Positions 9,803 to 60,813 of a stretch of DNA of 64,000 nt are shown in pieces (the first letter of the stretch is position 1; every line of letters begins with the position of its first letter). Below the pieces are notes generated by a model. It saw only the letters and a list, made by a program, of their open reading frames with translations. It was not told the origin of the DNA and did not search any database. The DNA comes from an uncultured Sterolibacterium sp. (GTDB lineage Bacteria; Pseudomonadota; Gammaproteobacteria; Burkholderiales; Rhodocyclaceae): positions 1 through 64,000 of the forward strand of contig CAILCO010000041.1 in assembly GCA_903832735.1 (NCBI GenBank). Reading direction: 5' to 3'. Made by a program: the position numbers and the translations under genes.

Positions 9803-9836
9803 CGGTAACGGCGCTGTAATACGGCGACTGTCTAAT
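9803..9836 (+). promoter_or_regulatory. Candidate Pho box plus -10 upstream of the TonB receptor
   Basis: CGGTAAC-GGCG-CTGTAAT-ACGG-CGACTG-TCTAAT, 11-bp phasing. Confidence 0.7.
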
Positions 9837-9873
9837 GGCGACTTTTCCGCTTGTCCAACCATTAGGGGTTTCC

Positions 9874-12135
9874 ATGTCCGTGCCAACTCTCAAGCCGCAT
9901 CGCGCTCGCCAGGCAGCCATTGCCACCCTCTTCGCCGTGTCGGCGATCGCCCTCGCGGTATCCCAGGCCTATGCCGCGGATGCCACAGACTTGGGCTCGG
10001 TGGGCACCTCGGGCGGCAGTGCCGGCGCGGTTCCCGCGGCAGCAAAGAACGCGCTTTCGCAAAGTTCCCTGGATGCGCGTTCGGCGCAGTCGGAGATCAG
10101 CGACGAGTTCATCCGCAATTTCACTTCGCCGGTCGCGGACTACAGCCAGATTCTGCAGATGGCGCCGGGCATGTTCAGCTACAGCCCGAACGGCCCCGGC
10201 CTCGGCGACACCAAGACCTCGATGCGCGGCCTTACGGACAGCAATGCGGTGATCTCCTTCGACGGCATCCCGTTCAACGACACCAACGGCGTCAGCCATC
10301 ACTCCTGGGTGTTTTTCCCCAGCCAGTTCGTCGGCGGCGCGGTGATCGACCGCAGCCCCGGTTCTGCCGCGACGATAGGCCAGGCGACTTTCGCCGGCTC
10401 GATCAACCTGCTCTCGCGCAATCTGGAGCCGGCCAAGCGGACCAGCGTCGAAGGCTCGTACGGCACCTGGAACACCTCGCTCGTCGGCATCGAACACGAG
10501 ACCGGCCAGTTCGGCGCGGACGGCGCTTCGAACCTCTTGTTCAACGTCCATGAGATGAAGTCGGACGGTTACGAAACCTTCAACAAGCAGAAGCGCGACG
10601 CCTTGTCGCTCAAGTATCAGTACGCCGTCTCGGCCGACACGGCGGTGACCGCCTTCGCTTCCTATCTCAACCTGAAGTCCAACACGCCGGCGGTCAAGGG
10701 GGTTTCGCGCGCCAACGTCAATCTGGGCAACTATGACTTACTGCTCAGCGGCGTCCCGAACACGCCCGCCTATTACGGCTACAACTTCTACGACGTCTCG
10801 ACCGACTTCAACTACCTCGGCGTCAGCTCCAATCTCGGCAACGGCTGGAAGCTGGAAGACAAGGTTTATGTCTATCGCTACTGGAACAAGCAGAATTACA
10901 ACAATTTCAAGTATGACGCGACCGGCCTGGTGCCGACCTCCCTGACCACCACCAGCGCCGTCGACAAGCTTAATTCCTACGTCACCAAGGGCAACCTGCT
11001 GCGCCTGTCACAGGAGTCTTCCCTGGGAACCTTTCGCACCGGACTGTGGTATGACGTGGCTGACAGCTACCGCTATCAGGTGAAATCCGATCCGCGAACC
11101 TGGATCGATACGCCATTGCCCAACTTCAGCGAGACCTACCGCACGACCACGATACAGCCCTATGTCGAATACGAATTCAAGGTCGCCAAGGATCTGAAAG
11201 TCACGCCCGGCGTCAAGTACGCTTCCTACAAGCAGGCCTTCAACCACTTGCAGGACTGCGCCACTATCGGCGGACTGGGCGCCACGGTGAACGCCGCCAC
11301 TTGCGCCATTACTTTGCCCGGCACCGGTCTTGGCCAGCCGAGCGTCTCCAATTCCGTCAGTTACAGCGACGTGCTGCCGTCACTGGACGTGCATTACCAG
11401 ATGCAGCCGAACTGGTCCGTTTACGGCCAATATGCCATCGGCGACCAGATTCCCGATACCGGGGTGTTCGACGTGAAGAACGCCCAGATCCTGAGCAAGC
11501 CGAAGCCGACGAAATCGACCACCTTCCAGTTCGGCTCGGTGTGGAAGTCCGACAAGTACACCCTGGATGCGGACATCTACCACAGCAAGCTGGACAATGC
11601 CTATACGGTCAGCGTCGATCCCGTCACCCTGCTGAATTTCTACCCGCTGATCGGCAATCAGATCATCCAGGGCATCGAAGCGGAGAGCAATATCCTCTTG
11701 GGCAGCGGCTTCAGCCTGTATCTCAACGGCACCTTCGGCAGCGCCAAGTACGACACCGGCAAATGGATCTCCGGCGCTCCCGCCGATACCGAAACGCTGG
11801 GCCTCAACTACCAGGCCTCCGGCTGGAACACCGGCCTGTTCGCCAAGCGCGTCGGCAAGATGTACAACGACAATGCCAGCGTACATGAGGCCTTCACGAT
11901 CGACCCGGTGGTGATGACCAACCTGTTCGTCAACTACACGCTGAAGACGCCGTCGAGTTTCACCAAGCAGGCCAAGATCCAGTTGGCCATCAACAATCTT
12001 TTCGATCGCCACAACGTCGTCGGCGTCGCCGGTGCGGGGACGGCTGCGAGCACGAGCGCGGCGCCTTCGCCGGCCGATTTGCTCACCGTGTTGCCGGCGC
12101 GCAGCGTATCCGCCACCGTGACGCTGGATTTCTGA
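9874..12135 (+). CDS. TonB-dependent outer-membrane receptor
   Basis: Plug domain 'DYSQILQMAPGMFSYSPNGPGLGDTKTSMRGL...', barrel, C-terminal 'VSATVTLDF'; start at 9874 (RBS aggggttt), since the ATG at 9835 overlaps the predicted -10. Confidence 0.93.
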   Translation: MSVPTLKPHRARQAAIATLFAVSAIALAVSQAYAADATDLGSVGTSGGSAGAVPAAAKNALSQSSLDARSAQSEISDEFIRNFTSPVADYSQILQMAPGMFSYSPNGPGLGDTKTSMRGLTDSNAVISFDGIPFNDTNGVSHHSWVFFPSQFVGGAVIDRSPGSAATIGQATFAGSINLLSRNLEPAKRTSVEGSYGTWNTSLVGIEHETGQFGADGASNLLFNVHEMKSDGYETFNKQKRDALSLKYQYAVSADTAVTAFASYLNLKSNTPAVKGVSRANVNLGNYDLLLSGVPNTPAYYGYNFYDVSTDFNYLGVSSNLGNGWKLEDKVYVYRYWNKQNYNNFKYDATGLVPTSLTTTSAVDKLNSYVTKGNLLRLSQESSLGTFRTGLWYDVADSYRYQVKSDPRTWIDTPLPNFSETYRTTTIQPYVEYEFKVAKDLKVTPGVKYASYKQAFNHLQDCATIGGLGATVNAATCAITLPGTGLGQPSVSNSVSYSDVLPSLDVHYQMQPNWSVYGQYAIGDQIPDTGVFDVKNAQILSKPKPTKSTTFQFGSVWKSDKYTLDADIYHSKLDNAYTVSVDPVTLLNFYPLIGNQIIQGIEAESNILLGSGFSLYLNGTFGSAKYDTGKWISGAPADTETLGLNYQASGWNTGLFAKRVGKMYNDNASVHEAFTIDPVVMTNLFVNYTLKTPSSFTKQAKIQLAINNLFDRHNVVGVAGAGTAASTSAAPSPADLLTVLPARSVSATVTLDF

Positions 12136-12153
12136 TTCCTTAGTCCGACTTAT

Positions 12154-12181
12154 CGGGGGTGTTCGCACCCCCGCTTTTTTT
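12154..12181 (+). terminator. Rho-independent terminator/attenuator between receptor and exbB
   Basis: CGGGGGTG-TTCG-CACCCCCG followed by CTTTTTTT. Confidence 0.88.
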
Positions 12182-12191
12182 GCGAGAGACC

Positions 12192-12863
12192 ATGAATATT
12201 CCCCGCTTGCTCGAACTTGCCAACGACTCCGGCGGCACGCTCTACCTGATGCTGCTCCTGCTTCTGGTCGCGCTGACCGTGATCATCGAACGCAGCCGCT
12301 TCCTCTCCAACATGCAGGAAGGCGGTGCCCGGCTGATCGCGTTGCTGAAGCAGGAAGGCGGGCAGATAGCCGACCTGGCGTTGCCCGGCAAACTCGCGCA
12401 ACTGCCGCATGCCCGGCTCTTCGCCATCGTCCAGACCGAGCCGGCCGGCGTCGACCGCAACAGCCTGGACGGCCATCTGGAAGAAGCGGTGATGCATGAA
12501 GTGCCCAGCCTGGATCGTTCGCTCTGGATGCTCGACACGGTGATCACCCTGGCGCCGTTGCTCGGTCTGTTCGGCACCATCGTCGGCATGTTCAACGCCT
12601 TTCATGCGCTGGGCGATGTTCAGAACGGCGCCACGCAGATCACCGGCGGCATTGCCGAGGCTTTGATCGCCACGGCGTCCGGCCTGTTCATTGCGATGAT
12701 CGGACTGGTCTTCTTCAATGCCCTGCATACCCGCGTCCGGCTGATCGTGCACCAACTCGAAACGCTCAAGGTCATGCTGGTCAACCGCCATCACCGGCTG
12801 GGATCGCCGCCAACATCGAGCCGCGTGCCGGTCGAACTGATCCGTACCCAGGCGAGGGCCTGA
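12192..12863 (+). CDS. exbB: MotA/TolQ/ExbB proton channel protein
   Basis: 'LDTVITLAPLLGLFGTIVGMFNAFHALG...GGIAEALIATASGLFIAMIGLVFFN'. Confidence 0.92.
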   Translation: MNIPRLLELANDSGGTLYLMLLLLLVALTVIIERSRFLSNMQEGGARLIALLKQEGGQIADLALPGKLAQLPHARLFAIVQTEPAGVDRNSLDGHLEEAVMHEVPSLDRSLWMLDTVITLAPLLGLFGTIVGMFNAFHALGDVQNGATQITGGIAEALIATASGLFIAMIGLVFFNALHTRVRLIVHQLETLKVMLVNRHHRLGSPPTSSRVPVELIRTQARA

Positions 12864-12864
12864 G

Positions 12865-13263
12865 ATGCGCTATCTGGAAACGCGCAAGGCCAGGATCGAG
12901 ATCATTCCGATGATCGACATCATGCTCTTCCTGCTGGTCTTCTTCGCCATGCTGACCCTGCGCATGATCCCGACTTCCGGCCATGTCACCAAACTGCCGA
13001 CCAGTTCCAGCGCGGCGACCATTCCGCCGCCGAAACTGCTGGTCGAAATCAGCGCCGATGGCAGCCTGCTGGTCGAGAACCGCTCGCTGACCCCGGCGCA
13101 ACTCACCGAATTGCTGAAGAGCCGCGGCAGCAGCAAGACCGCCGTGACCATCGCCGGCAACCAGACCGCGACCTTGCAGCAGGTGATGAGCGTGATCGAT
13201 GCGATCAAGGCCGGCGGCGCGACCGAAATCGGCCTGGCCACGCGCATCAAGGCCGGCAGCTAG
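12865..13263 (+). CDS. exbD: ExbD/TolR biopolymer transport protein
   Basis: 'RKARIEIIPMIDIMLFLLVFFAMLTLRM'. Confidence 0.92.
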   Translation: MRYLETRKARIEIIPMIDIMLFLLVFFAMLTLRMIPTSGHVTKLPTSSSAATIPPPKLLVEISADGSLLVENRSLTPAQLTELLKSRGSSKTAVTIAGNQTATLQQVMSVIDAIKAGGATEIGLATRIKAGS

Positions 13264-13269
13264 TACGGC

Positions 13270-13947
13270 ATGTCATTTTCAGACCCAGCCAGGCAGCTGC
13301 AGGCCATAGTCCTGGCGCTGCTCCTCGAGGCCGTGCTGCTCGGCGCCGCCGGCGTCGTGCTGGCCGGCGCCTTGCAGGCCAAGCCGGCGATCGCCGAGCC
13401 GGTGACGATCACCTTGCTCAGCGACGAATCGTCGTCACCCCCGCCGCCGCCCCCGCCGTCACCTCCACCCCCGCCGCCCAAGCCCAAGCCCAAGCCGCCG
13501 GAGCCCAGGCCCAAGCAGCAGTTGCTACCTCAGCTGCCGCCTCCGCCGACGCCGCTAGCGCCGCTGCCAATTCCGCTTCCCCAGGTGGCGGCGCCGACCG
13601 CCTTTAGCGAACCGGTCAAGCCGCCGCTGCCGCCGCCGCCCGCTCCTGCGGTGACCAGCCGGCCGGACCAGAGTCTCGAATATGCCGCCAAGGTGCGTGC
13701 GGCCGTTCAGGCGGCGGTGTTCTATCCGACGGCCGCGGCCGCGCTGCGCTTTTCCGGACGGGTGCGGCTGGAGTTTCATCTTCGGGACGGTGTCCCGGGC
13801 GAAGCGCAGGTGCTGGTCGCTAGCGGCATAGGCTTCATCGACGGCGCCGCCTTGCAGGCAGTGCGCAGTGCCCGTTATCCTGAACCGCCAGCGGAGATGC
13901 GCGGAGCCGACCGGGTATATCAGGTGTGGGTCGAATTCAACCGTTGA
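13270..13947 (+). CDS. tonB: TonB-family energy transducer with polyproline segment
   Basis: TM, P/K-rich spacer (PPPPPPSPPPPPPKPKPKPPEPRPK), C-terminal TonB domain ending VYQVWVEFNR. Confidence 0.92.
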   Translation: MSFSDPARQLQAIVLALLLEAVLLGAAGVVLAGALQAKPAIAEPVTITLLSDESSSPPPPPPPSPPPPPPKPKPKPPEPRPKQQLLPQLPPPPTPLAPLPIPLPQVAAPTAFSEPVKPPLPPPPAPAVTSRPDQSLEYAAKVRAAVQAAVFYPTAAAALRFSGRVRLEFHLRDGVPGEAQVLVASGIGFIDGAALQAVRSARYPEPPAEMRGADRVYQVWVEFNR

Positions 13948-13958
13948 AAGGGGCGATC

Positions 13959-15368
13959 TTGGCGCATCCGAGCCATGTAGTTGCGGTATGCGCTGTATGC
14001 GCTTGTCTGACCTTGCTGATGCAGCCGCTGCACGCCGTTGGTGCTGCCGAGGCGGAGGTCAAAGCGGCATGGGTAGTGCTCGGCGAGGATGGAGCAGCGG
14101 TCGCAAGAATCGTCAGCGCGGATGGCAACTGTCCGAACATCCTGATCGACGGCAAGTCGTATCCGATGAGCCTGCGCGCCAGGGCCGAAACGATCGCGTT
14201 GCGGCCGACGGCGAGCAGCATCGCAGATTCCAAGCCCTCGTCCTTCCCTTTCAGCACCTGCGAATATCCGCTGCCCGGCAACGCCACGCGCGCCTCGGTC
14301 GGATCGCACAACTTGCCCGTGCCCAAGACCAGTCCGCAGCGCATCGTGGTCATCGGCGACAGCGGCTGCCGGATGAAGAAGGCCGACAATGCCTGGCAGG
14401 ACTGTGCCGATCCGAATGCCTGGCCGTTCGCGCAGATCGCCCGCGTTGCCGCCAGCTTCAATCCGGATCTGGTGGTCCATGTCGGCGACTATCATTACCG
14501 GGAGAATCCCTGTCTTGCCGGTGGCTGCCAGGGCAGTCCCTGGGGTTACGGCTGGGATACCTGGGACGCCGATCTGTTCACCCCGGCGGCGCCGCTCTTC
14601 GCCGCCGCGCCCTGGATCGTGGCGCGCGGCAACCACGAGGAATGCGCCCGCGCCGGCCAGGGCTGGTTCCGCTTCCTCGATCCGCGTCCCTACGCTGCCG
14701 GCCGCTCGTGCAACGATCCGGCCCGGGACGGGGAGGGCAACAGTTCCGAACCCTACGCGGTGCCCCTTGGCGCCGACGCCCAGATCATCGTCTTCGATTC
14801 CGCGAAAGTCAGCGGTTCGCCGCTGGATCCGGCAAGCGCCAAGGACGCGCCGATGCTTGCAAGGTTCCAGGCGCAGTTCCGGCGGGTCGCCGAACTCGCC
14901 GCAAAGCCGGGAACCCTGAGTCTGTTCACCAACCATCATCCCATCCTGGGCCTGACGCCCAAGGCCGCCAACTCAGTAATCGGCGGCAACCGGGCGCTGC
15001 TCTCGGCGATGCAGGCGGACTATGGCACGGCCTACTATCCGCCCGGCATCCAGGTTGCGCTGCACGGCCACACCCACCTGTTCGAGGCAATCAACTTCGC
15101 CTCGGATCATCCGGCCACTTTCCTCTCCGGCAATTCGGGCGACAATGTCGATCAGAGCCTGCCCGATCCCCTGCCCGCGGATAGCTCACCGGCCGCAGGC
15201 GTTGTCATAGACCAGATCACCCAGAGCAATACGTTCGGCTTCCTGGTCCTCGATCGCCTGCAGGAAGGCTGGGCCTTCAAGGCCTACCGGCGCGACGGTA
15301 CGCTGATGACGACTTGCCTGCTGAACAAGAGCAAGATCAATTGCAATCGGACGGGCTTGATCAAATAG
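13959..15368 (+). CDS. secreted calcineurin-like metallophosphoesterase, copy 2
   Basis: Same motifs as copy 1; TTG start preceded by AAAGGGG; immediately follows tonB. Confidence 0.88.
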   Translation: MAHPSHVVAVCAVCACLTLLMQPLHAVGAAEAEVKAAWVVLGEDGAAVARIVSADGNCPNILIDGKSYPMSLRARAETIALRPTASSIADSKPSSFPFSTCEYPLPGNATRASVGSHNLPVPKTSPQRIVVIGDSGCRMKKADNAWQDCADPNAWPFAQIARVAASFNPDLVVHVGDYHYRENPCLAGGCQGSPWGYGWDTWDADLFTPAAPLFAAAPWIVARGNHEECARAGQGWFRFLDPRPYAAGRSCNDPARDGEGNSSEPYAVPLGADAQIIVFDSAKVSGSPLDPASAKDAPMLARFQAQFRRVAELAAKPGTLSLFTNHHPILGLTPKAANSVIGGNRALLSAMQADYGTAYYPPGIQVALHGHTHLFEAINFASDHPATFLSGNSGDNVDQSLPDPLPADSSPAAGVVIDQITQSNTFGFLVLDRLQEGWAFKAYRRDGTLMTTCLLNKSKINCNRTGLIK

Positions 15369-15389: not shown

Positions 15390-17228
15390 CTACTTCGTCA
15401 GTTGCCGGCGCTCGACGAACAGAGAACTGCCGGCGGTCTTTTTCGCCTGCTTCTTGGCGTAGCTGACGGCGACCGAGATCTCGTGGTGCGATGAAAACAG
15501 GTGCGCATCGACGCGCACGCAGCCGATCGACAGCGCCGGAAACGGATGGAAGGCCGGTTGCCCCCGTCTGTCCTCGCTGACCAGGCCGCCGCGCTCCAGA
15601 TCTTCGGCAGGCAGCAGGGCTTCCATTTGCTCGTCGAACTTGACCAGCATGCGCTCGCAACGGGCTTCCCAATCCTCGCTTTGCAAGAGCAGCATGAAAT
15701 CGTCGCCGCCGATGTGACCGACGAAATCGGACTGCAGGTCGACCAGGCCGGAGAGCAGCTTGCCCATCATCAGGATCACATCGTCGCCCTTGCGGTAGCC
15801 GTAGGCGTCGTTGAAGGGCTTGAAATGGTCGATGTCGCAATAGCAGGCAACGAAGCTGGCGCCGCGCGCCAGCAGTCGCTCCATGTGCTCGTTGATCGGC
15901 ACATTGCCGGGCAGCTGGGTCAGCGGGTTGGCGTAGCGGGCGGCGTGGATCTGCATGTCGGTGATCAGGGCCATCAGGTCCTGGCTGTTGCCGACGCCGA
16001 TATAACGGCCCTGCTCGGTGATGATAAAACCGTCGAAGATGTGATGCTTGGCGGAGCCGCTTAACAGGCGCCCGACTTCCTGTACCGACGTTTTATGGTC
16101 GACGATCAGCGGCGTGGCATCCATGAAATGCGTGCACGGCTTCTTGCCGAAAATCTCCCGCTGGAAAGGACGCGCAAAGCGATCGATCAGGCTATGGCGG
16201 TTGACCATGCCCAGGGGCATGCCATCCTTGACCACGGGCAGCACCTGCAGCTCCGGATTCTGCTCGAAATGGGCATAGACCTTGTCGTTCTCCATGCTTG
16301 GCGCCAGCGGCGTGATCTGGCGCAATAGCTTGCGGATGACCGTCGCCTGCGAGCGTTCGTGCGGGAAGATGATGACGCTGCTCTCCTCGATCAGGGCGCG
16401 TATGCCGTCGCCCAGGCTGCATCCGGGATCGGCCTCGGGGCGGCAGATACGGTAGCCCTGGCCGAGTTCTATCCCCAGGTCGCGCACCGTGGCGAATTCG
16501 GCATCGGTTTCTATGCCTTCGGCGATGATCCGGGAATTGCAGGTCTCGGCGATGTCATGCATGGCGCGCACCAGCTGGAACTTCAGCGCATCCTTCTCGA
16601 TGCCGCTGATGAAGTGGCGGTCGATCTTGACGAATTCCGGCCTGAGCTCGGACCACATGCGCAGGTTGGAGAAGCCCTCTCCGAGATCGTCGATGGCGAT
16701 CTGGTAGCCCTGGCTACGGTAGGCCTTGAGGGTGTCGCGCAGCGCCGAGAAGTCGCTGATGTGCTGGTTTTCGGTCAGCTCGATGACGATCCGGCTGGTC
16801 TTCAGGCCGAGACTGCCGAGCAGGGTCGCGGTCTCGCCGTTCATGAAGGTAGGGTCGCGCAGACAGCTTGGGCTGACGTTGATGAAGAGCTTTTCCGGAA
16901 CGTTCAGGGCCGCGAAGCCGCTCAGCACGACGCGCCGGCATAACCGCTCGAACTCCATGGTCAGGCCGGCGTGACTCGCCAGGCCGAATAGCGCCAGGGG
17001 AGAGTGCAGGGGCGTGCCGGCCGGCCCGCGGATCAGCCCCTCGTAGCCGAGATAGCGCCGCGCCTTGAAGTCGAGGATCGGCTGAAATACCGCGCTCAAG
17101 CCGGGGCCCTGCAGCAGTTCGTGGAAGCGGCGCAGATTGGCCTCGCTGAGCCAGTCCGGCGCATCGTTGTCGATGACCATTTTCAGGGGAGTGTTCGCTA
17201 GCCTTAGGTGTACAGCTGAAGTGGACAT
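15390..17228 (-). CDS. EAL - CBS - GGDEF cyclic-di-GMP protein
   Basis: EAL 'YEGLIRG...IVIELTENQ...IAIDDLGEGFSN...IKIDRHFISGI', CBS-like middle, degenerate GGDEF 'GHIGGDDFMLLLQ'. Confidence 0.9.
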   Translation of the reverse strand: MSTSAVHLRLANTPLKMVIDNDAPDWLSEANLRRFHELLQGPGLSAVFQPILDFKARRYLGYEGLIRGPAGTPLHSPLALFGLASHAGLTMEFERLCRRVVLSGFAALNVPEKLFINVSPSCLRDPTFMNGETATLLGSLGLKTSRIVIELTENQHISDFSALRDTLKAYRSQGYQIAIDDLGEGFSNLRMWSELRPEFVKIDRHFISGIEKDALKFQLVRAMHDIAETCNSRIIAEGIETDAEFATVRDLGIELGQGYRICRPEADPGCSLGDGIRALIEESSVIIFPHERSQATVIRKLLRQITPLAPSMENDKVYAHFEQNPELQVLPVVKDGMPLGMVNRHSLIDRFARPFQREIFGKKPCTHFMDATPLIVDHKTSVQEVGRLLSGSAKHHIFDGFIITEQGRYIGVGNSQDLMALITDMQIHAARYANPLTQLPGNVPINEHMERLLARGASFVACYCDIDHFKPFNDAYGYRKGDDVILMMGKLLSGLVDLQSDFVGHIGGDDFMLLLQSEDWEARCERMLVKFDEQMEALLPAEDLERGGLVSEDRRGQPAFHPFPALSIGCVRVDAHLFSSHHEISVAVSYAKKQAKKTAGSSLFVERRQLTK

Positions 17229-17270
17229 GATGACGAGCCGGGACAATTGCAGAGCGTAGAATCTAAGCGT

Positions 17271-17285
17271 CCTGTGTTACACAGG
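17271..17285. promoter_or_regulatory. Perfect 15-bp palindrome in a divergent intergenic region
   Basis: CCTGTGT-T-ACACAGG. Confidence 0.5.
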
Positions 17286-17375
17286 CATGACCGCGACTAA
17301 AACTGATGCCATATTTATTCGCTGTGAGGTCTTCAAGTTGACGATGTGCAAGTTCACCGTAGGTGCTCATAGGAC

Positions 17376-19002: not shown

Positions 19003-19036
19003 TTTTAACGAGAGCGCAACATTCGCCGGCTAGAAT
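19003..19036 (+). promoter_or_regulatory. Candidate (degenerate) Pho box plus -10 upstream of alkaline phosphatase
   Basis: TTTTAAC-GAGA-GCGCAAC-ATTC-GCCGGC-TAGAAT. Confidence 0.5.
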
Positions 19037-19069: not shown

Positions 19070-21253
19070 ATGGCTATTGCAAAATCACCGCTCTGCTGGC
19101 TCGGACTCGTTCTGCTGGCCATCGTTCCGATCCATGCCGCAGCCGACACCGGGCTGAGAATACTGCCGCCGACCGGGACGCAACTGATTGCCGGCCAGCG
19201 CTTCGACCTGCGCGTCGAGACCCAATTGCCGGCGACTGCACCGCCCGAACTGGTGCGTCTGAATATCAACGGCCGGGATGTCAGCGAGCGCTTCAGGAAG
19301 CGCATCGCCGCCCAGGGGCCGGGCCTGGAAAGCGGCACGCCGAACTCGCCCTTGCTCTATGGCGCGACTGCGCGCAATCTCAGCTTCGGCCGGCCGGGCA
19401 TCTGGAAGGTCGAGGCGGTGGTCGAGGTCGATGGTGTCCTGCGCACGATAGCGAATACCTACCCGGTCGCCCAGTCGCCCTTCGACGGCGTCAAGCCGGG
19501 GGCCGGTCCGCAGCACGTGGTGTTCTTCCTCGGCGACGGCATGGGCCTGCCGATCCGCACCGCGGCGCGCATCGTCGGCCGCGGCTTGGCCGAAGGACAT
19601 GACCGGGGGCGTTTGCAGATGGATGCCATGGACGATTACGCGATGATCCACACCGCGTCCTTCGACAGCATCATCACCGACTCCGCGCCGGGCATGGCAA
19701 ACTATGTCACGGGCATGAAACAGGCGAACAATGCCCTGAACGTCTCGGTCGACAACACGCCGGAAAGCAATCTCGACAACCCGCGCATCGAAACCCTGTG
19801 GGAGTTCCTGAAGCGCACCCGGGGCTGGAAGACCGGCGTCGTCACCGACGCCTTCGCCACCGATGCCACGCCCGCCGCCGTCGCCGCGCACAGCCGGGCG
19901 CGCTCGGCCAGGAGCGCAATCGCCCAGCAGATGATCGGCTACTACCAGGACGGCACGGCGCAGCCGAAGACTGGCTACGCCGGGCTGGCGGCATTGACCC
20001 AGCCGCTCGACGTGATCCTGGGCTCCGGCGGTCGCGACTGGCTGCTCAAGACCAATCCGGCAGCCAGGACGTTCTACCAGTACCAGGATCAGGGCAGGGC
20101 GGACGTCGATCTCTTCGCCAGCGTCGCCCCCGGCCTGGGTTTTGCCACCGTGAAGAATCTCGCCGAACTCCAGGCGGCCCCCGACGACCGCCGCCTGCTC
20201 GGGATCTTCAGCGGCGAATTCCGGACGACGTCCTCGGGCCTGGGCGCCGACAACATCCCGGCGGTGCTCGATCGCCGCGTCGCCCGCGGCCTGGCGACGA
20301 TCCGCGGCAAGGACGCGACGGCCGACGAGATCGGCATGAACGTCGCCCCGCCCTATGGCGACGGCTGCGGTGCGACGGTCGCCGACTGCTTCCGCGCGGT
20401 GCCCTCGAAGCTGGAAATGCTGACCAAGGCGGTCTCCGTCCTGAACCGCCTGGCCGGCAAGGACCACGGCTGGATCCTCCTGGTCGAGCAATCGCAGACC
20501 GACAAGCTCGGCCATATCCTCGAATACGACAGAGTCATCTACGAGGCGCTGGAACTGGACGAAAGCGTCGCCTGGGCCATCAAGCATGTCCAGGATGCGC
20601 TGGTTATCGTCACCGCCGATCACGCCCAGCCCGAGACCATCATCGGTGTGGCCATGCCCGGCGCGGTCAAGGCCACGCCCGGCGGCTGCTTTTCCGGCGC
20701 CAGCTATCCGCTCAGCCTGGGCAATGCTGCCGACCTCGATCGCCCTTGCGCGCTGCAGGATGCGATCGGCACATTCAACGACGCGAGTTTTCCGACCTAC
20801 GTCAGCAGCCGGCATGACGGTTACCCGGACGACCCGGATCCCCTGGTCAAGCTGGTGCTCGAAGACGGCGGGCGGCCGACCTACAGCACCAATTACCTGA
20901 GCAACTTCCAGCCGCTCGAGCCCTCGGCCAGGAACGCCGCGCTGCCCAACCCGAAACGCGCCCCCGACGGCCTGCTGATGACCGGCAACATGCCGACGCG
21001 CAGCGTCGCCGAAGGGGCGAACAAGACCGAGGGCAACGTCAGCATCGCCCCGCACTCGGGCGACGATGTGCTGCTTTCCGCATCCGGTCGCGGCGCCGGC
21101 CTGTTCGGCGGCAGCTACGAGAATTCCGAACTGCAGGTGCGCATCGCCGCCGCGCTGCGCGGTGCTTCGCGCCGTGAGCAACTGAAACTTGGTTCGGACT
21201 ATCCCGGGGTGCCGGCCAACTCGCCTTCCGCGGACCATGTCGGAGGCCTTTAA
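19070..21253 (+). CDS. alkaline phosphatase (PhoA-type fold)
   Basis: 'HVVFFLGDGMGLPIRTAARI', 'DYAMIHTASFDSIITDSAPGMANYVTG', 'GWILLVEQSQTDKLGH', 'VTADHAQPET', 'SGDDVLL'. Confidence 0.9.
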   Translation: MAIAKSPLCWLGLVLLAIVPIHAAADTGLRILPPTGTQLIAGQRFDLRVETQLPATAPPELVRLNINGRDVSERFRKRIAAQGPGLESGTPNSPLLYGATARNLSFGRPGIWKVEAVVEVDGVLRTIANTYPVAQSPFDGVKPGAGPQHVVFFLGDGMGLPIRTAARIVGRGLAEGHDRGRLQMDAMDDYAMIHTASFDSIITDSAPGMANYVTGMKQANNALNVSVDNTPESNLDNPRIETLWEFLKRTRGWKTGVVTDAFATDATPAAVAAHSRARSARSAIAQQMIGYYQDGTAQPKTGYAGLAALTQPLDVILGSGGRDWLLKTNPAARTFYQYQDQGRADVDLFASVAPGLGFATVKNLAELQAAPDDRRLLGIFSGEFRTTSSGLGADNIPAVLDRRVARGLATIRGKDATADEIGMNVAPPYGDGCGATVADCFRAVPSKLEMLTKAVSVLNRLAGKDHGWILLVEQSQTDKLGHILEYDRVIYEALELDESVAWAIKHVQDALVIVTADHAQPETIIGVAMPGAVKATPGGCFSGASYPLSLGNAADLDRPCALQDAIGTFNDASFPTYVSSRHDGYPDDPDPLVKLVLEDGGRPTYSTNYLSNFQPLEPSARNAALPNPKRAPDGLLMTGNMPTRSVAEGANKTEGNVSIAPHSGDDVLLSASGRGAGLFGGSYENSELQVRIAAALRGASRREQLKLGSDYPGVPANSPSADHVGGL

Positions 21254-22950: not shown

Positions 22951-22984
22951 CTGTAATGCCAGGGTCACACGGCGCCGGTATCCT
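22951..22984 (+). promoter_or_regulatory. Candidate Pho box plus -10 upstream of btaA
   Basis: CTGTAAT-GCCA-GGGTCAC-ACGG-CGCCGG-TATCCT. Confidence 0.68.
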
Positions 22985-45231: not shown

Positions 45232-45234
45232 CGT

Positions 45235-48018: not shown

Positions 48019-48188
48019 CTTCTGGGGCTCCGGACAACGGATGGTCTAGGGGAAACAGCGATAGTCGATTTCATCCGGTGCATTGCCCGGCGGCGGTGTA
48101 AGGATGAGGCGGCTGGCTATTGTCGATCGTAGCCAAGATCGGCTTGCGATCTCAGCGGACACGAGGGACAGTCGAATGAAATCTGTGC

Positions 48189-48210
48189 CCGCTGAAATTC
48201 CGATTTCAGC
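48189..48210. repeat. Perfect hairpin in the mgtA 5' region
   Basis: CGCTGAAAT-TCCG-ATTTCAGCG (9-bp stem). Confidence 0.7.
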
Positions 48211-48454
48211 GATGAGCAGCAGCGTTTCAGCGATGCCAGGACCTTCGCCGGCCGCAGACCGCTTGCCGGCGGTAGTGTGAGACCGTCGCTGAGGACGTCC
48301 AGTTCCCGTAGACGGGATCGGATACCGGAAGACAAGGATTCGATGCCTGACCAGCGCCGGCAATTCTTGGTAATCTGAATCAGTTGGCGGGTGTCAAGCC
48401 TGCTTCGCGCTGGCGGCATAACTGCCTAATCGACCGGTGAAGGAGAGATCTCCG

Positions 48455-48488
48455 ATCTTAGCCAAAAATTGTGACAGCCTTGTGACGC
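48455..48488 (-). promoter_or_regulatory. Candidate Pho box plus -10 reading toward mgtA-ppk
   Basis: Minus strand GCGTCAC-AAGG-CTGTCAC-AATT-TTTGGC-TAAGAT. Confidence 0.75.
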
Positions 48489-48540
48489 AATCACGGCAGG
48501 GGTTCATCAAACCTTCACAGTGCCCGGCTATCATGAATTT

Positions 48541-48795: not shown

Positions 48796-48863
48796 GGCGA
48801 ACTCCTGTTTTGATGTGCGCGCAGGAACACGATAGCAAAGGCAGGTTAAGGATCTATTTCAGT

Positions 48864-49883: not shown

Positions 49884-50653
49884 GCACCTGGATCTTCCTG
49901 CGCGGCCTGACGCGCGAAGCCCGCCATTGGGGAGATTTTTCCGCGACCTTCCGTGCCGCGTTTCCCGATGCGCAGATTGTCGCCCTGGATCTTCCCGGCA
50001 ATGGTTCTCTGCATACGCTGGCCAGCCCGCTCAGCGTCGAGGCCATGGCGGCATACTGCCGCGCCGAACTCGGCTCACGCGGCATCCCGCCGCCCTACCA
50101 TCTTCTGGCGATGTCGCTGGGCGCGATGGTGGCCGCCGCCTGGGCGGCGGAGCAGCCGCGGGAGATCGCTGCCTGCGTCCTGATCAATACCAGCCTGCGG
50201 CCGTTCAGTCCGTTCTATCACCGGCTCAGGCCGGAGAACTACCTGGCCTTGTGCCAGCGAGCCTTGCTCGGCGGCGACGGGCGCGAGTGGGAGGAACTGA
50301 TCCTCAGGCTGACCAGCCGCGATCCGCAAAAGCATGAGCAGGTGCTCGATTCCTGGCTCGCCTATCGCCGCGAATGCCCGGTATCGGTCGGCAACGCCTT
50401 GCGCCAATTGCTCGCCGCGAGCCGCTATCGCGCAGGCGCCGGCAAGCCGGTGGCGCCCATGCTGATCCTCGCAAGCAGCAACGATGCCCTGGTGAATCCG
50501 CGTTGCTCGCGACGAGTCGCGCTCCATTGGCATGCCGCGATCGTCGAACATCCGACCGCCGGACACGATCTGCCACTCGAAGACGGCCCCTGGGTTGTCG
50601 AGCAAGTCCGCCTTTGGCTGTCATCACGCCGTCACAGTGGGCGGCTACGATAA
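49868..50653 (+). CDS. alpha/beta hydrolase
   Basis: 'IFLRGLTREARHWGDFSATFRAAFPDAQIVALDLPGNG...LLAMSLGAMVAAAWA...HPTAGHDLPLEDG'; overlaps upstream stop. Confidence 0.85.
   Translation: MVPLVSTWIFLRGLTREARHWGDFSATFRAAFPDAQIVALDLPGNGSLHTLASPLSVEAMAAYCRAELGSRGIPPPYHLLAMSLGAMVAAAWAAEQPREIAACVLINTSLRPFSPFYHRLRPENYLALCQRALLGGDGREWEELILRLTSRDPQKHEQVLDSWLAYRRECPVSVGNALRQLLAASRYRAGAGKPVAPMLILASSNDALVNPRCSRRVALHWHAAIVEHPTAGHDLPLEDGPWVVEQVRLWLSSRRHSGRLR
50618..50651 (+). promoter_or_regulatory. Candidate Pho box plus -10 upstream of plcP-like gene, within the 3' end of the hydrolase gene
   Basis: CTGTCAT-CACG-CCGTCAC-AGTG-GGCGGC-TACGAT. Confidence 0.75.
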
Positions 50654-50677: not shown

Positions 50678-51451
50678 ATGACGAAATACCGCTCCATTTT
50701 TCTCTCAGACATCCACCTCGGCACGCGCGGCTGCCAGGCGGAACGATTGCTGGACTTCCTGCGCGAGCATGAGTCGGAGAAGCTGTTTCTGGTCGGCGAC
50801 ATCATCGATTTCTGGGCCATGAACCGGACCATCCACTGGTCGCCGCTGCAGAACACCCTGGTGCAAAAGGTGTTGCGCCGGGCGCGTCACGGCGATCAGG
50901 TGGTGCTGATTCCGGGCAACCATGACGAGGCTTTGCGCGAATATGTCGACACCTCGTTCGGCGACATCCAGGTGGTCCGCGAACTCATCCATACCGCCGC
51001 CGACGGACGGCGCTACCTGGTGCTCCATGGCGACGAGTTCGATCAGGTGACGCGCCATCACCGCTGGGTGGCGGTGCTCGGCGACATCGCCTACAACTTT
51101 CTGGTGCGACTCAATGCCTGGCTGTCCTGGCTGCGCCGGACCCTGCGCATCCCGGGCTACTGGTCGCTGGCCGGCTATGCCAAGCGACGAATCAAGAGCG
51201 CGGTCAGTTTCATTTTTGATTTCGAGGACTCGGTGATTCATGCCGTTCGCGAGCGCGGCCTCGACGGCGTGATCTGCGGCCATATCCACAGCGCCGCGAT
51301 CCGCGAAGTCGGCGGCCTGACCTACATCAACTGCGGCGACTGGGTGGATAGCTGCACCGCCATCGTCGAGCACGCCGACGGACGAATGGAATTGATCGCC
51401 TGGGGCGCCGTGAAACCGGTCGGCCTGACGCTGGCAGCCGTCGCGGCTTAA
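50678..51451 (+). CDS. plcP: LpxH/PlcP-type metallophosphoesterase (PlcP-like phospholipase C candidate)
   Basis: 'YRSIFLSDIHLGTRGCQAERLLDFLREHESEKLFLVGDIIDFWAM...VLIPGNHDEAL...LHGDEFD...ICGHIHSAAIRE'. Confidence 0.78.
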   Translation: MTKYRSIFLSDIHLGTRGCQAERLLDFLREHESEKLFLVGDIIDFWAMNRTIHWSPLQNTLVQKVLRRARHGDQVVLIPGNHDEALREYVDTSFGDIQVVRELIHTAADGRRYLVLHGDEFDQVTRHHRWVAVLGDIAYNFLVRLNAWLSWLRRTLRIPGYWSLAGYAKRRIKSAVSFIFDFEDSVIHAVRERGLDGVICGHIHSAAIREVGGLTYINCGDWVDSCTAIVEHADGRMELIAWGAVKPVGLTLAAVAA

Positions 51452-52772: not shown

Positions 52773-52802
52773 CGTTTATTGGCGCTTATTGGCGCTTATT
52801 GG
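52773..52802. repeat. Short ~10-bp tandem repeat at the 3' end of GT4 gene
   Basis: ggcgtttattggcgcttattggcgcttattgg. Confidence 0.7.
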
Positions 52803-53956
52803 TTGAGCAGCGAGCGGTAGATCCCGGCGACTTCGCGGGCGCGTTCCGCGGCGCCCCATTCCCGGGCGAAATCTCGCGCCGCAGGCCTGAGCGCGGCCCG
52901 GCGGGTAGGGTCTTGCAACACCCCGACGAGACTCGCGGCGAAACCGTCGACGTCGTCAGGCGCAGCCACCGCGCCGCGCTCCGGGCCGATGATCTCGCGT
53001 GTGCCCATGGCCGCGAGTCCGACCACGGGTACGCCCTGGGCCATGGCCTCGAGCAGCACCAGACCCTGCGTCTCGGTGCGCGAGGCGAAGACGAAGGCGT
53101 CGGCGGCGTGATAGCAGTCGCGCAGTCCGCTGTTGCGATCGAGATAGCCGACGAAATTCACCTGTTCCGCGAGGCCGAGCTTCTCCGCTTGCGTGCGCAA
53201 TGACGGCAGGGCCGGGCCTTCGCCGGCCACGACCAGGAGCAGATCGGGGAGGCTGCGCCTGGCCCGGTCGATCACTTCGAGCAGGAAGCCGATGTTTTTT
53301 TCGAAGGCGATGCGGCCGACGAAGAGCGCCATCGGACGGTCGCGGGCAATGCCGTGTTCGGCGCGGAAGCGTGCGCCGTCGCCGGACGTGAAGAAATCCT
53401 CGGGGATCCCGGTCGGCAGCACGGTCAGCGGCCGGCTCACGCCGTAAGCTTCGAGCACCAGGCGCATGGCTGCCGAGGGCACCAGAACCGCATCGAGGTC
53501 ATTGCACTGGGCCCGCGAGAAACGCCGCGCCGCTGCGCGGACCCAGGAACCTGGAAGGAAGGGCAAATAATGGCCGAGGTATTCCTCGAAGTAGGTATGG
53601 TAGGTCGCCACGCAGGGCACGCCGAGCGCTCGCGCCAATGCCAGGCCGGCATAATGGGCAACGAAGGGCGTGTGGATATGCACCAGGTCGATGTTTTTGT
53701 GGCGCAGTTCCCCGAGCAGTTTCAGCGTGGCGCGATAGCTCATCAGGCGGTCTTCGGGGTCGCGCGGCACCGGGCGCGAGGGGATCCGGTAGATGCCGTT
53801 CGCCTCGAGCAGCACTTCTTTCGCCGGCAGGTAATGCGGCGCGATCAGCGTGACCGCGTGGCCGGCAGCGATGAGTTCGCCGCGAAAGGTTTCGATCGAG
53901 GTCGATACGCCATTGATGCGCGGGAAGTAGACATCGGAAACGTAGAGGATGTGCAT
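52796..53956 (-). CDS. GT4-family glycosyltransferase (lipid glycosyltransferase candidate)
   Basis: 'MHILYVSDVYFPRINGVSTSIETFRGELIAAGHAVTLIAPHY...VHIHTPFVAHYAGLALARALGVPCVATYHTYFEEYLGHY...ASRTETQGLVLLEAMAQGVPVVG'. Confidence 0.88.
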   Translation of the reverse strand: MHILYVSDVYFPRINGVSTSIETFRGELIAAGHAVTLIAPHYLPAKEVLLEANGIYRIPSRPVPRDPEDRLMSYRATLKLLGELRHKNIDLVHIHTPFVAHYAGLALARALGVPCVATYHTYFEEYLGHYLPFLPGSWVRAAARRFSRAQCNDLDAVLVPSAAMRLVLEAYGVSRPLTVLPTGIPEDFFTSGDGARFRAEHGIARDRPMALFVGRIAFEKNIGFLLEVIDRARRSLPDLLLVVAGEGPALPSLRTQAEKLGLAEQVNFVGYLDRNSGLRDCYHAADAFVFASRTETQGLVLLEAMAQGVPVVGLAAMGTREIIGPERGAVAAPDDVDGFAASLVGVLQDPTRRAALRPAARDFAREWGAAERAREVAGIYRSLLNQ

Positions 53957-53961
53957 CGAAC

Positions 53962-55191
53962 TTAGCGGGAACTCTCCGTTGCCAGGATCACGCCCTTTTC
54001 GGCTTGATGCGTCCTGAGGCGGCTGTGTACGATTTGCCCGAGGATGCGCGCGAAATTGTCGTGGATATGTTCCCAGTCGTGATCGGCAATGCTGGCCACG
54101 GCGCGGCTTCTCATGTGCGCGAGCGTTTCGCGATCGGCGGCGGCAGTCAGCAGGGCTGCGGCGATGAAGTCCGACTCGTCGCCAGCCTCGGCAAGCACGC
54201 CGTTGTCGCCGTCGCGGATCAACTCGGCCGCCGCGGCGTGACGGTAGGCGACGACGCAAAGGCCGCTTGCCAGTGCCTCCAGGGTGACGTTGCCAAAGGT
54301 TTCGGTGAGGCTGGGAAAGAGGAACAAATCGGCCGAGGCATAGTGGCAGGCAAGCTCTTCGCCGCTGCGCATGCCGCAATAGACATGCTCGGGATGCGTC
54401 TGCTGCAGCCGCGCCCGCTCCGGTCCGTCGCCGACGAAGATCAGTCTGGCGCGCGGCACCCGGGCGCGGATGGCGGCGAAGGCGCGAATCACCAGGGGCA
54501 GATTTTTCTCCGCCGCCATGCGCCCGACGTTGATCACCGCAAGGTCATCGTCATACACGCCCCAGTTCGCCCGCAACGCCTGCGAGCGCCGCCCCGGATG
54601 GTAGAGTTGGCGATCGACGCCCCGGGCCAGCACCTCGATGTTTTGATACGCCTGGCGGAGCAATTCCTGGCGTAGCGATTCGGTAGGAACCAGACTCAAA
54701 TCGGTGCTGTTGTGAAATTTGCGCAGGTAGGCGGTAATCGGACGCTTCAGCCAGGCAAAGCCGTAATGGCGGCTGTAATGATCGAACTTGGTGTGGAAGT
54801 CCGAACTGACCGGCAGCTTCAGCAAGCGGGCCGCGGCTATGGCCGACCAACCGAGCGGCCCCTCGGTGGCCACATGCACCAGGTCCGGCCGTTGCTCGCG
54901 CCACAATCGGGCCAGAATCCGCTTGGCCGGCAGCCCCATCTTCAGGCCCGGATAGCTCGGGATCGGCACGCCGCGCGTCAGTTTGTCGGCGGCGATCGGC
55001 GCATCGGTCGGCGATTGGCGCGGCCGCACCAACTGGACGAAATGGCCGCGCGCTCGCAATCCTTCGACCATGCGCCCCAGGGTCATGGCCACGCCGTTGA
55101 TCTCGGGCGGATAGGTTTCGGTCACCAGGGCAATGCGCAGCGGCAACTTGCCCGATGGATAGTCTTCGATCAGCAGTGGGTGTTCATCCAT
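53962..55191 (-). CDS. GT4-family glycosyltransferase (SqdX/MgtA-like)
   Basis: 'RIALVTETYPPEINGVAMTLGRMVEGLRARGHFVQLVRPRQ...FPSLTETFGNVTLEALASGLCVVAY'. Confidence 0.87.
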   Translation of the reverse strand: MDEHPLLIEDYPSGKLPLRIALVTETYPPEINGVAMTLGRMVEGLRARGHFVQLVRPRQSPTDAPIAADKLTRGVPIPSYPGLKMGLPAKRILARLWREQRPDLVHVATEGPLGWSAIAAARLLKLPVSSDFHTKFDHYSRHYGFAWLKRPITAYLRKFHNSTDLSLVPTESLRQELLRQAYQNIEVLARGVDRQLYHPGRRSQALRANWGVYDDDLAVINVGRMAAEKNLPLVIRAFAAIRARVPRARLIFVGDGPERARLQQTHPEHVYCGMRSGEELACHYASADLFLFPSLTETFGNVTLEALASGLCVVAYRHAAAAELIRDGDNGVLAEAGDESDFIAAALLTAAADRETLAHMRSRAVASIADHDWEHIHDNFARILGQIVHSRLRTHQAEKGVILATESSR

Positions 55192-55213: not shown

Positions 55214-55253
55214 GCGACAAAATGATGACGCCCGAATGACAGTTTCGTGACGG
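55214..55253 (-). promoter_or_regulatory. Four phased Pho half-sites upstream of the GT4 pair
   Basis: Minus strand CCGTCAC-GAAA-CTGTCAT-TCGG-GCGTCAT-CATT-TTGTCGC. Confidence 0.8.
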
Positions 55254-55254
55254 C

Positions 55255-55312
55255 TAGCACCTACTGCGCTGGCACAAGAGCCCTGGGTTGCCCTTCGGAC
55301 AACTACGGGCCG
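55255..55312 (-). repeat. Third copy of the dispersed hairpin element, overlapping the dagK stop codon
   Basis: Minus strand ggcccgtagttgtccgaagggcaacccagggctcttgtgccagcgcagtaggtgctag; about 51 of 58 positions match unit at 5352. Confidence 0.85.
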
Positions 55313-55674
55313 AGCAACACCAGAGTCCAGACCGCCGCGACATTGAGCAGCGAGATCAGCACTGCGGCGCTGCCGATGTCCTTGGCCCGCTTGGCGAGTT
55401 GATGGTCATCCAGGGAGATGCGGTCGACCGTCGCCTCGATGGCCGAGTTGAGGAGTTCGACGATGATCACCAGGAGGATGCTGGCGACCATCAAGGCGCG
55501 TCCGATCCCGGAGACCGGCAGGAACAGGGCCAGGGGGATCAGGACGGCGGCGAGCAGCGCCTCCTGGCGGAAGGCGTCCTCGTGGCGATAGGCGGCGGCT
55601 AGACCGGCGATGGAATAATGGCAGGCATTCCACAGGCGCTTTAAGCCGGTCTTGCCTTTATAGGGACTTTCCAT
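55303..55674 (-). CDS. dgkA: diacylglycerol kinase (prokaryotic DgkA type)
   Basis: 'MESPYKGKTGLKRLWNACHYSIAGLAAAYRHEDAFRQEALLAAVLIPLALFL...ILLVIIVELLNSAIEATVDRIS'. Confidence 0.92.
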   Translation of the reverse strand: MESPYKGKTGLKRLWNACHYSIAGLAAAYRHEDAFRQEALLAAVLIPLALFLPVSGIGRALMVASILLVIIVELLNSAIEATVDRISLDDHQLAKRAKDIGSAAVLISLLNVAAVWTLVLLGP

Positions 55675-55688
55675 GGATCTCCCGGTAT

Positions 55689-56450
55689 TCAGTTCTGGCG
55701 CTCCACGAAATGTCGGGCATAGCGTTCGTTGATCCGCGACATTGGCAGCAACAACAGCAGGTCGGCGGTATTGAAATCCGGATCCCAGGCCGGCTCGCCG
55801 CAAACCCAGGCGCCGGCGCGAAAGTAACCCTTCAGGAGCGGCGGCAAACAGGCCTCGGTGTCGGCGTTGCTGCTCAATTGTGCCAGCGGCAGCGGGCAGC
55901 GGGGGAAAACGCGGTATTCCAGCGGCGCGAGCTGTTCCGATAGGCCATTGTAGATCGCCGCGGCATTGTAGCCGCCGTCATTCATGCCGATGCTGGCGCA
56001 GCCGATCAGATAGTCGTGGCCGTTGGCCAGCATGTAGCGGGTGAGTCCGGCCCAGAGCAGGGTGATGACGGCGCCGCTGCGATAGTCCGGATCGATGCAG
56101 GAGCGGCCGACTTCGACGGTGCGCGGCCGCAGATGGGCGAGGCGGGTGAGGTCGAATTCGCTCTCCGAATAATAGCTGCCGACGCTGCGCGCCGCTTCCG
56201 GCGAGAGGATGCGGTAAGTGCCGACGATGCGTCCCTGCTCCTCGTCGCGCACGATCAGGTGCTCGCAGTAGGGATCGTAGTGGTCGCGATCGACGCCCGG
56301 CGTGCGCGTCGCAAGACGGGCGCCGAGCTCCTCGGCGAAGACCCGGTAGCGCAGTTTCTGCGCTTCGAGGATTTCGCTTGCGCTCGCGGCAAGACCGACA
56401 TGGAGCTTGAGACGGCTGCGGCGCTGTTCGCTGCTGTGAAGTTGCGTCAT
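55689..56450 (-). CDS. olsB: OlsB-like N-acyltransferase (ornithine lipid biosynthesis)
   Basis: 'EILEAQKLRYRVFAEELGARL...DHYDPYCEHLIVRDEEQGRIVGTYRIL...SEFDLTRLAHLRPRTVEVGRSCIDPDYRSGAVITLLWAGLTRYM'. Confidence 0.83.
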   Translation of the reverse strand: MTQLHSSEQRRSRLKLHVGLAASASEILEAQKLRYRVFAEELGARLATRTPGVDRDHYDPYCEHLIVRDEEQGRIVGTYRILSPEAARSVGSYYSESEFDLTRLAHLRPRTVEVGRSCIDPDYRSGAVITLLWAGLTRYMLANGHDYLIGCASIGMNDGGYNAAAIYNGLSEQLAPLEYRVFPRCPLPLAQLSSNADTEACLPPLLKGYFRAGAWVCGEPAWDPDFNTADLLLLLPMSRINERYARHFVERQN

Positions 56451-56479: not shown

Positions 56480-56535
56480 ACTTTAGGCAGGCAGCGTTGC
56501 ACCAGGGTTGCAGCGACGTTAAGTTTGCATGACAA
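56480..56535 (-). promoter_or_regulatory. Four phased Pho-like half-sites plus -10 upstream of olsB
   Basis: Minus strand TTGTCAT-GCAA-ACTTAAC-GTCG-CTGCAAC-CCTG-GTGCAAC-GCTG-CCTGCC-TAAAGT. Confidence 0.65.
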
Positions 56536-59600: not shown

Positions 59601-59782
59601 GTTGCTCCTTTCGTGATCTTGCCTGCGCGAGCCGTGCCGCGCACCGCGATTCGGGCGGCGAATTATAACGTGCGCTCCCGCCAGCGATTACCCTCCGACT
59701 GCATCCCGCTCTGGTAAGATCCACGGCTGCGGCGCGGGCACGACCAGCGGCGAATTCGGCGGCACCATCACGAGGAGAAGAC

Positions 59783-60754
59783 ATGCGCAGATTCCTGATT
59801 CCGGCGGTCGCGGTGGTCGGGCTGATCGCGGCACTGATGCACGGTGCCGCTCTGGCCCAGAGCTATCCCAACAAGCTGGTCAAGCTGGTCGTCACCTATC
59901 CGGCCGGCGGCAGTTCGGATCTGATGGCGCGCCTGCTCGCCCACAAGCTTGCGGAACTCTGGAACCAGGCGGTGATCGTCGAGAACAAGCCCGGCGCCGC
60001 CGGCTCCATCGGCATGGATTACGCCGCCAAGCTGCCGCCCGACGGCTACAGCTTCGTCATCGGCAATATCGGGCCGGCGGCGGTCAATCTGCTGCTGACC
60101 AAGGTGCCCTACAACGTCGAGCGCGATTTCGTCGCGATTTCGCTGATTTCCACCGGGCCCAACGTCCTGATCGTCAATCCCAAGGTGTCGGCCAAGTCGC
60201 TGCGCGAACTGACCGATCTCGCGAAATCGGGCGGCGACAAACTCAACTACGGCACCAGCGGCCCGGGCAGCGTTTCCCAGCTTGCCGGCGAAATGTACCG
60301 GAACCTCACCGGCGTCAATGCCACCGAGATTCCCTACAAGGGCGGCATACTCGGCGTGCAGGACCTGATCGCGGGACATATCCAGTACATCTTCTCCGAC
60401 TCGCTGCCGGCGATGCAGTTCATCAAGAGCGGCCGGGCGCGGGCGCTGTGCGTCACCAGCGCCGAGCGCAGCCAGGTGCTGCCGGAAATACCGCCCTGCG
60501 CTGAAGCCGTACCCGGCCTGGTGGCGCTGAACTGGTGGGGCGTGTTCATGCCCAAGGGAACGCCGAAGGCAATCACCGACAAATTCCACGCCGACATCGT
60601 CAAGGTGCTGCAGGACCCCGAGATCAAGAGCAAATTCGCCGGACTGGGCGTGGACGCGGTGAGCAGCACGCCGGAACAGTTCGCCGGCTTCATCCGCACC
60701 GAAACCACGAAGTACGCGAAACTGATCAAGGAAACCGGGATCAAGGCGGAATGA
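59783..60754 (+). CDS. Bug/TctC-family tripartite tricarboxylate transporter binding protein
   Basis: 'YPNKLVKLVVTYPAGGSSDLMARLLAHKLAELWNQAVIVENKPGAAGSIGMDYAAK'. Confidence 0.93.
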   Translation: MRRFLIPAVAVVGLIAALMHGAALAQSYPNKLVKLVVTYPAGGSSDLMARLLAHKLAELWNQAVIVENKPGAAGSIGMDYAAKLPPDGYSFVIGNIGPAAVNLLLTKVPYNVERDFVAISLISTGPNVLIVNPKVSAKSLRELTDLAKSGGDKLNYGTSGPGSVSQLAGEMYRNLTGVNATEIPYKGGILGVQDLIAGHIQYIFSDSLPAMQFIKSGRARALCVTSAERSQVLPEIPPCAEAVPGLVALNWWGVFMPKGTPKAITDKFHADIVKVLQDPEIKSKFAGLGVDAVSSTPEQFAGFIRTETTKYAKLIKETGIKAE

Positions 60755-60779
60755 TCCTCCGGGGCTGGGAGAACGATGC

Positions 60780-60813
60780 CTGTCACGCAGTTGTCACATT
60801 GCCTGGCTAGAAT
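60780..60813 (+). promoter_or_regulatory. Pho box plus -10 upstream of pstS
   Basis: CTGTCAC-GCAG-TTGTCAC-ATTG-CCTGGC-TAGAAT. Confidence 0.85.

Follow-up and report, generated by a model that had tools for sequence, protein, structure and literature searches.

A candidate PhoB regulon island spanning some 55 kb in the genome of an uncultured Sterolibacterium

An uncultured Sterolibacterium sp. very probably carries a native PhoB regulon island of ~55 kb, in which ~17 transcription units between 9.8 and ~64.6 kb of one contig are each preceded by a predicted PhoB-binding site (Pho box). The stretch analysed here (the window) covers the first 64 kb of that 124-kb contig, CAILCO010000041.1 (C41), in the draft genome GCA_903832735.1 (G000; 4.33 Mb in 176 contigs), and it makes up 1.5% of the genome. 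The sites, their positions, geometry, clustering and conservation, and the gene families downstream of them, are direct observations on the sequences.

A preliminary description of the window had quoted six 34-nucleotide (nt) sites, all of which were found letter for letter, at 60780+, 50618+, 48455-, 39624-, 22951+ and 9803+. A strict pattern derived from them, BGTMAY-N5-BGTMAY-N10-TANNNT, was scanned over the whole genome and gave 10 exact matches, nine of them in the window (binomial p ~3e-16); no similar density was seen elsewhere. The tenth match lies on contig C46, where phoB and phoR are encoded as a pair (PF00486; PF11808, PhoR), and ends ~29 nt ahead of where phoB, which it would drive, likely starts; a strict box thus stands upstream of both pstS and phoB. 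The reversed pattern had no exact match in the genome, and the pattern shifted one base out of register gave background only, with 5 one-mismatch matches against 5 in the control. Since the pattern was partly built from sites of the preliminary description, further tests were added. With the quoted sites left out, four of the five remaining strict sites fall inside the window (p ~2e-7). An a-priori motif, the E. coli box CTGTCAT-N4-CTGTMAY with at most 2 mismatches, was found at 8 places in the window (7 independent) against ~0.34 expected from its reversed control (Poisson p ~1e-7). A leave-genus-out matrix, trained on 98 sites from other genera in the family and run over the 55-kb island and 409 kb (~0.41 Mb) of background from the same genome, gave 20 matches above its threshold of 14 in the island against 0.54 expected from the background. 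A matrix made from the six quoted sites added further sites upstream of genes, at 48501+, 31623-, 17260-, 42375+, 19003+, 31661+ and 56480-. About a dozen sites had been claimed; there are ~17 boxed units, and the observation is stronger than first described.

The layout fits a PhoB box in place of the −35 element, as had been proposed, and the distance from the end of the box to the start codon is 26-43 nt at 10 of the 17 sites; the exceptions are the HAD phosphatase gene (7 nt), the kinase and phasin genes (~90 nt) and the M14 peptidase and mgtA genes (hundreds of nt). Start codons were set from protein N-termini, either by signal peptides (pstS, TonB receptor) or by homology (phoH, HAD), and are unsettled for two of the 17 boxed genes. 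The sites had been called intergenic; several overlap the first in-frame ATG of the raw open reading frames, but the starts based on N-termini lie downstream. That of the TonB receptor was re-set to 9874 because of the position of its signal peptide, and a third half-site is found 11 bp upstream of its box. Two back-to-back pairs, 31623-/31661+ and 48455-/48501+, serve divergent units. A lineage-specific GGCTAnnAT at the −10, suggested earlier, did not hold, as GGCTA is present in 5 of the 17 sites and these columns are nearly information-free in the family-wide matrix. The boxes and their units are as follows.

9803-9836 (+): Pho box and −10 of the TonB receptor operon; strict pattern with 1 mismatch, leave-genus-out matrix; conserved in the sister genome G003
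9874-15368 (+): TonB-dependent receptor, exbB, exbD, tonB and metallophosphatase (Pfam)
15390-17228 (-): EAL/CBS/GGDEF protein (cyclic di-GMP, c-di-GMP; Pfam); in relatives often near plcP
17260-17293 (-): Pho box and −10 of the EAL-CBS-GGDEF protein; exact strict match; conserved in G003
19003-19036 (+): Pho box and −10 of the alkaline phosphatase; matrix score 21.1
19070-21253 (+): alkaline-phosphatase-family protein (PF00245)
22951-22984 (+): Pho box and −10 of btaAB; exact strict match; conserved in G003
23015-24939 (+): btaA (DUF3419) and btaB (methyltransferase), predicted betaine lipid synthesis (family matches)
24934-24967 (+): Pho box and −10 of the PilZ protein and family-2 glycosyltransferase; exact strict match
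24999-26341 (+): PilZ protein and family-2 glycosyltransferase (family matches)
27033-27066 (-): weaker Pho box of the phasin gene; strict pattern with 1 mismatch; matrix score 18.9
31623-31656 (-): Pho box and −10 of two EAL/GGDEF genes (27516-31677); exact strict match
31661-31694 (+): Pho box of the chemosensory-like operon, divergent from 31623-; matrix score 17.0; conserved in G003 and in other genera and families
31785-36934 (+): HAMP-Hpt-HATPase kinase, stub resembling a methyl-accepting chemotaxis protein (MCP), CheX-fold protein (35019-35558), CheX and CheY (Pfam, structure)
37017-38546 (+): CYTH-CHAD protein, probably of the same operon (Pfam)
39624-39657 (-): Pho box and −10 of the HAD phosphatase; exact strict match; 32/34 identical in G003
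41165-41198 (-): weak Pho-like box of phoH; matrix score 11.0; 29/34 identical in G003
42375-42408 (+): Pho box and −10 of a protein without family match; exact strict match; conserved in G003
43156-48018 (-): mgtA (Mg2+ P-type ATPase, TIGR01524) and ppk1 (island-specific paralogue; family matches)
48455-48488 (-): Pho box and −10 of the mgtA-ppk1 operon; exact strict match; conserved in G003
48501-48534 (+): Pho box and −10 of the M14 peptidase-hydrolase operon, divergent from mgtA; matrix score 17.4; conserved in G003
48810-50653 (+): M14 peptidase-like protein and alpha/beta hydrolase (family matches)
50618-50651 (+): Pho box and −10 of plcP; exact strict match; conserved in G003 and in the other same-genus genomes G004 and G001
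50678-51451 (+): plcP-like metallophosphoesterase, predicted to turn phospholipid into diacylglycerol (family match, neighbourhood)
52796-55191 (-): two family-4 glycosyltransferases (GT4; family matches)
55220-55253 (-): tandem Pho half-sites at 11-bp spacing, GT4 operon; strict pattern with 1 mismatch, E. coli motif and matrix
55303-56450 (-): dgkA (diacylglycerol kinase) and olsB-like acyltransferase (family matches)
56480-56513 (-): Pho box of olsB-dgkA; matrix score 15.8
60780-60813 (+): Pho box and −10 of pstSCAB; exact strict match with the highest score; conserved in G003, G004 and G001
60848-63787 (+): pstS, pstC and pstA, with pstB next, ending near 64.6 kb (family matches)

The boxes are kept at orthologous promoters of the sister genome. 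At 11 promoters shared by G000 and G003 the 34-bp site is 20-32/34 identical and the adjoining upstream 34 bp 7-16/34, the downstream side, part of which is coding, being more alike; half-sites and the −10 together are 88% identical against 67% for the spacers. In G003 one 59.7-kb contig carries olsB-dgkA-GT4-GT4-plcP ... hydrolase-M14-mgtA-ppk1 ... phoH-HAD ... CYTH/CHAD-cheY-cheX-orf-mcp-kinase-btaBA-EAL-metallophosphatase-tonB-exbDB-receptor, an order nearly equal to that of G000, with local insertions and losses. Its contigs C16 and C23 meet in an assembly junction, an exact 126-bp overlap at the promoter of pstS, which leaves the contiguity of the island on that side unproven. The G003 island also has an extra lipoprotein-like gene (L129:1922-4066), judged from the N-terminus to be probably a phosphodiesterase or phosphatase, and a separate Pho-like site lies upstream of it (1822 +). 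G004 and G001 hold a smaller plcP-glycosyltransferase-GT4-dgkA-pst core that retains its boxes, and among 80 related loci the most frequent neighbours of plcP are a GT4 (62), another GT4 (49), dgkA (40), olsB (31) and pstB (25). In view of this recurrence and of the smaller core, the island looks as if it grew in this genus around an old betaproteobacterial core, plcP-glycosyltransferase-dgkA-olsB beside pst.

Among 81 family genomes, strict sites number 10 in G000 and 9 in G003, and genomes of other genera reach 6 at most. Of 275 class genomes one matches the total of 10, with its sites over 3.7 Mb, and one with 9 has them spread across 8 contigs. The densest other groups, among the listed class genomes and ten individually queried ones, hold 5 sites within 21 kb and 4 within 45 kb; the gammaproteobacterial stretch G246:C159:4217-25498, with five strict sites in 21 kb, is a smaller cluster of the same sort. 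The island shares with the E. coli PhoB/PhoR regulon the half-sites 11 bp apart, a −10 at fixed distance, the pst, phosphatase and phoB members and an autoregulated phoBR, but its strong sites lie nearly all in one 55-kb stretch. To our knowledge, btaAB, plcP, olsB and the chemosensory-like operon are outside the E. coli PhoB regulon. The clustering had been described as unusual, which is borne out by the strict-site counts in the family, but gathering of phosphate genes as such has a precedent in HIMB59, marine Alphaproteobacteria whose variable island around pst, no larger than 18.5 kb and 19 genes, likewise joins the pst operon to ppk, alkaline phosphatase, diacylglycerol kinase, glycosyltransferase and LpxH-like genes (PMC10734472). 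Most of its versions include phoBR, and the term Pho box is absent from that text, whereas here phoBR lies elsewhere and ~17 boxed units extend over ~55 kb. Phosphate islands are thus already known.

Several points weigh against the reading as a PhoB regulon island. The strict pattern came partly from the preliminary description's own sites, which the held-out and independent tests answer in part; the weaker sites (phoH, phasin, olsB) could singly be chance; looser Pho boxes may exist elsewhere in the genome, as the matrix scan covered ~0.41 Mb and the pattern scan all of it; the draft assembly is in 176 contigs; and mgtC-like, DinB, CobW, LVIVD and TctC genes within the island have no box. 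If a degenerate motif in a GC-rich genome had simply been read generously, single weak sites such as those of phoH and phasin would indeed not stand alone, but this explanation is rejected as practically without probability, since it is already refuted by the genome-wide scan, and the reversed controls, independent motif, footprint and start-codon spacing argue against it as well. It is also improbable, though less extremely so, that the boxes are genuine and a different regulator of the OmpR family reads them, making a co-regulated island that does not answer phosphate through PhoB. Direct repeats spaced 10-11 bp apart are targets of many OmpR-family regulators, and the box is somewhat degenerate (GTMAY), yet the same strict box stands at phoB-phoR and pstS, the E. 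coli PhoB consensus is matched and phosphate genes follow downstream.

The remaining alternative concerns origin only and does not conflict with PhoB control: the island would be a phosphate cassette that is flexible and moves horizontally, as in HIMB59 or Prochlorococcus. Islands of such type have been described (PMC10734472), and gene content varies among G000, G003, G004 and G001. At the borders, the pst/tpiA side recurs in relatives, and G000 differs from G003 in its left flank. However, gene order is largely shared between G000 and G003, whose orthologues diverge to a normal degree, the core is found beside tpiA in many relatives, a tRNA scan of the window gave no match, and no integrase or transposase is among its annotated genes. 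Acquisition judged by composition has no support, as the GC content of the island equals that of the rest of the genome. We regard such a cassette as unlikely, albeit the most credible of these alternatives, and prefer a native PhoB regulon island.

The genes downstream fit phosphate starvation, as proposed earlier for most of them, with pst, phosphatases, lipid remodelling and ppk1. By analogy with E. coli, from which the box in place of the −35 and activation by PhoR-PhoB are taken, scarce phosphate would lead PhoR to phosphorylate PhoB, both encoded elsewhere in an autoregulated operon, and PhoB would occupy each box instead of the −35 element, turning all blocks on together. PstSCAB would then import phosphate, while the TonB system and phosphatases may take up and cleave phosphate esters; PlcP, the two GT4 enzymes, DgkA, OlsB and BtaAB would replace phospholipids by glycolipids, ornithine lipids and betaine lipids; a dedicated second polyphosphate kinase would run with the pump for Mg2+ import, the CYTH-CHAD protein being another putative polyphosphate component; and signalling would be reset by the EAL/GGDEF/PilZ proteins and the chemosensory-like kinase operon.

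A PlcP-type phosphoesterase and a nearby lipid glycosyltransferase under predicted Pho boxes suggest, from family assignments, a lipid-remodelling locus. Such loci, with plcP near glycosyltransferases and Pho boxes upstream, are already known (PMC4796936), whereas here they are joined with BtaAB, OlsB, DgkA, pst, ppk1 and mgtA in one betaproteobacterial locus. The mgtA and ppk1 genes form one boxed operon in both G000 and G003, and each genome has a second ppk1 (G000:C102:3589-5646; G003:C17:89840-91894), which shares 80% identity with the island copy. In G000, G003, G004 and G001 the housekeeping copies group together (87-93% mutual identity), and no Pho box was found in the fetched stretches around them; the island copies form a separate group, 88% identical to each other and ~80% to the former. 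Between the Pho promoter and mgtA (48018-48455) there are ~430 nt against ~20 nt in G003, possibly an inserted leader or element; here, as in the rest of the window, Rfam found nothing, and a check of the leader for repeats gave only short inverted ones. Between phoH and ppk1, a lysine/alanine/proline-rich histone-H1-like protein without family match (41740-42216, -) may bind polyphosphate, and the boxed gene 42375-43113 (+) has no Pfam or NCBIfam match and a G003 orthologue of 53% identity. Boxed EAL genes recall the RapA/Lap pathway of Pseudomonas fluorescens, where a c-di-GMP phosphodiesterase is induced by low phosphate (PMC3032545), although the EAL proteins here are different and share the island with a chemosensory-like operon.

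Three further Pho-like sites were noted. One (27084-27117, +; score 18.9) has no convincing plus-strand gene downstream, and a small RNA or short open reading frame is possible; another (48829-48862, -) lies antisense within the start of the M14 gene, with a similar one at L136 3248 (-); and a site scoring 21.1 lies outside the island (L140:7965 (-), equal to G000:C58:52964).

The chemosensory-like operon is the least explained part of the island. It shares with CheA/CheY/CheX systems (PMC10782961) an Hpt and CheA-type ATPase, an MCP-like signalling domain, CheX phosphatases and CheY, but its kinase has a HAMP domain and a membrane-type N-terminus and a Pho box lies upstream. CheA is defined by a C-terminal CheW domain and the absence of an own sensor domain (PMC10782961), and the kinase falls outside this definition by Pfam, which gives HAMP, Hpt and a CheA-type HATPase only and finds neither a CheW nor a P3 domain. 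In the four kinases that were aligned, the histidine motif of the Hpt domain is invariant. For the protein encoded at 35019, an AlphaFold model (predicted local distance difference test, pLDDT, 85) matched solved CheX structures (E ~1e-7) with modest template modelling (TM) scores of ~0.5-0.66, and E91 and N94, the E-x2-N motif, are invariant; the modelled CheX/CheC fold and the motif together point to a CheX-type protein. Orthologues of the kinase are present in 7 of 121 genomes of the family and in 18 of 399 of the order. Outside the genus (loci including L178, L181 and L154-L169) a Pho-like site lies upstream of 13 of the 17 orthologues (p <0.01 against a first-order Markov null) and of none of 7 kinase matches that begin inside the query, with a different or cut N-terminus; a score as high is reached in just 0.4% of other windows of the same loci. 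In one genus (L178) the operon and pstSCAB are divergently oriented, each side having a box, and in another the operon lies near EAL-glycosyltransferase-plcP, with four boxes inside 4 kb. Literature searches on Pho-controlled CheX/CheA-like operons gave nothing relevant and no description of the operon. As a tentative proposal, which we do not hold to be the likelier case, the operon could be an undescribed phosphate-starvation chemosensory-like system, with a membrane CheA-like kinase, a receptor stub, two CheX-type phosphatases and CheY, controlled by PhoB across many Burkholderiales and passing a second, post-PhoB signal to motility or a c-di-GMP output, and the genus would have gathered its Pho regulon around this operon and pst.

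The island points to this conserved Pho-marked operon, for which the literature searched held no description, and it gives an extreme example from nature of a regulon gathered at one chromosomal place with its regulator gene elsewhere. It can be used to test why co-regulated operons cluster, be it joint inheritance, local supply of the regulator or accretion onto an old core. Read as a PhoB regulon island, it shows how a freshwater betaproteobacterium combines the import of phosphate, the replacement of phospholipids, the synthesis of polyphosphate and signalling in a single response, for which a second ppk1 would be reserved during starvation.

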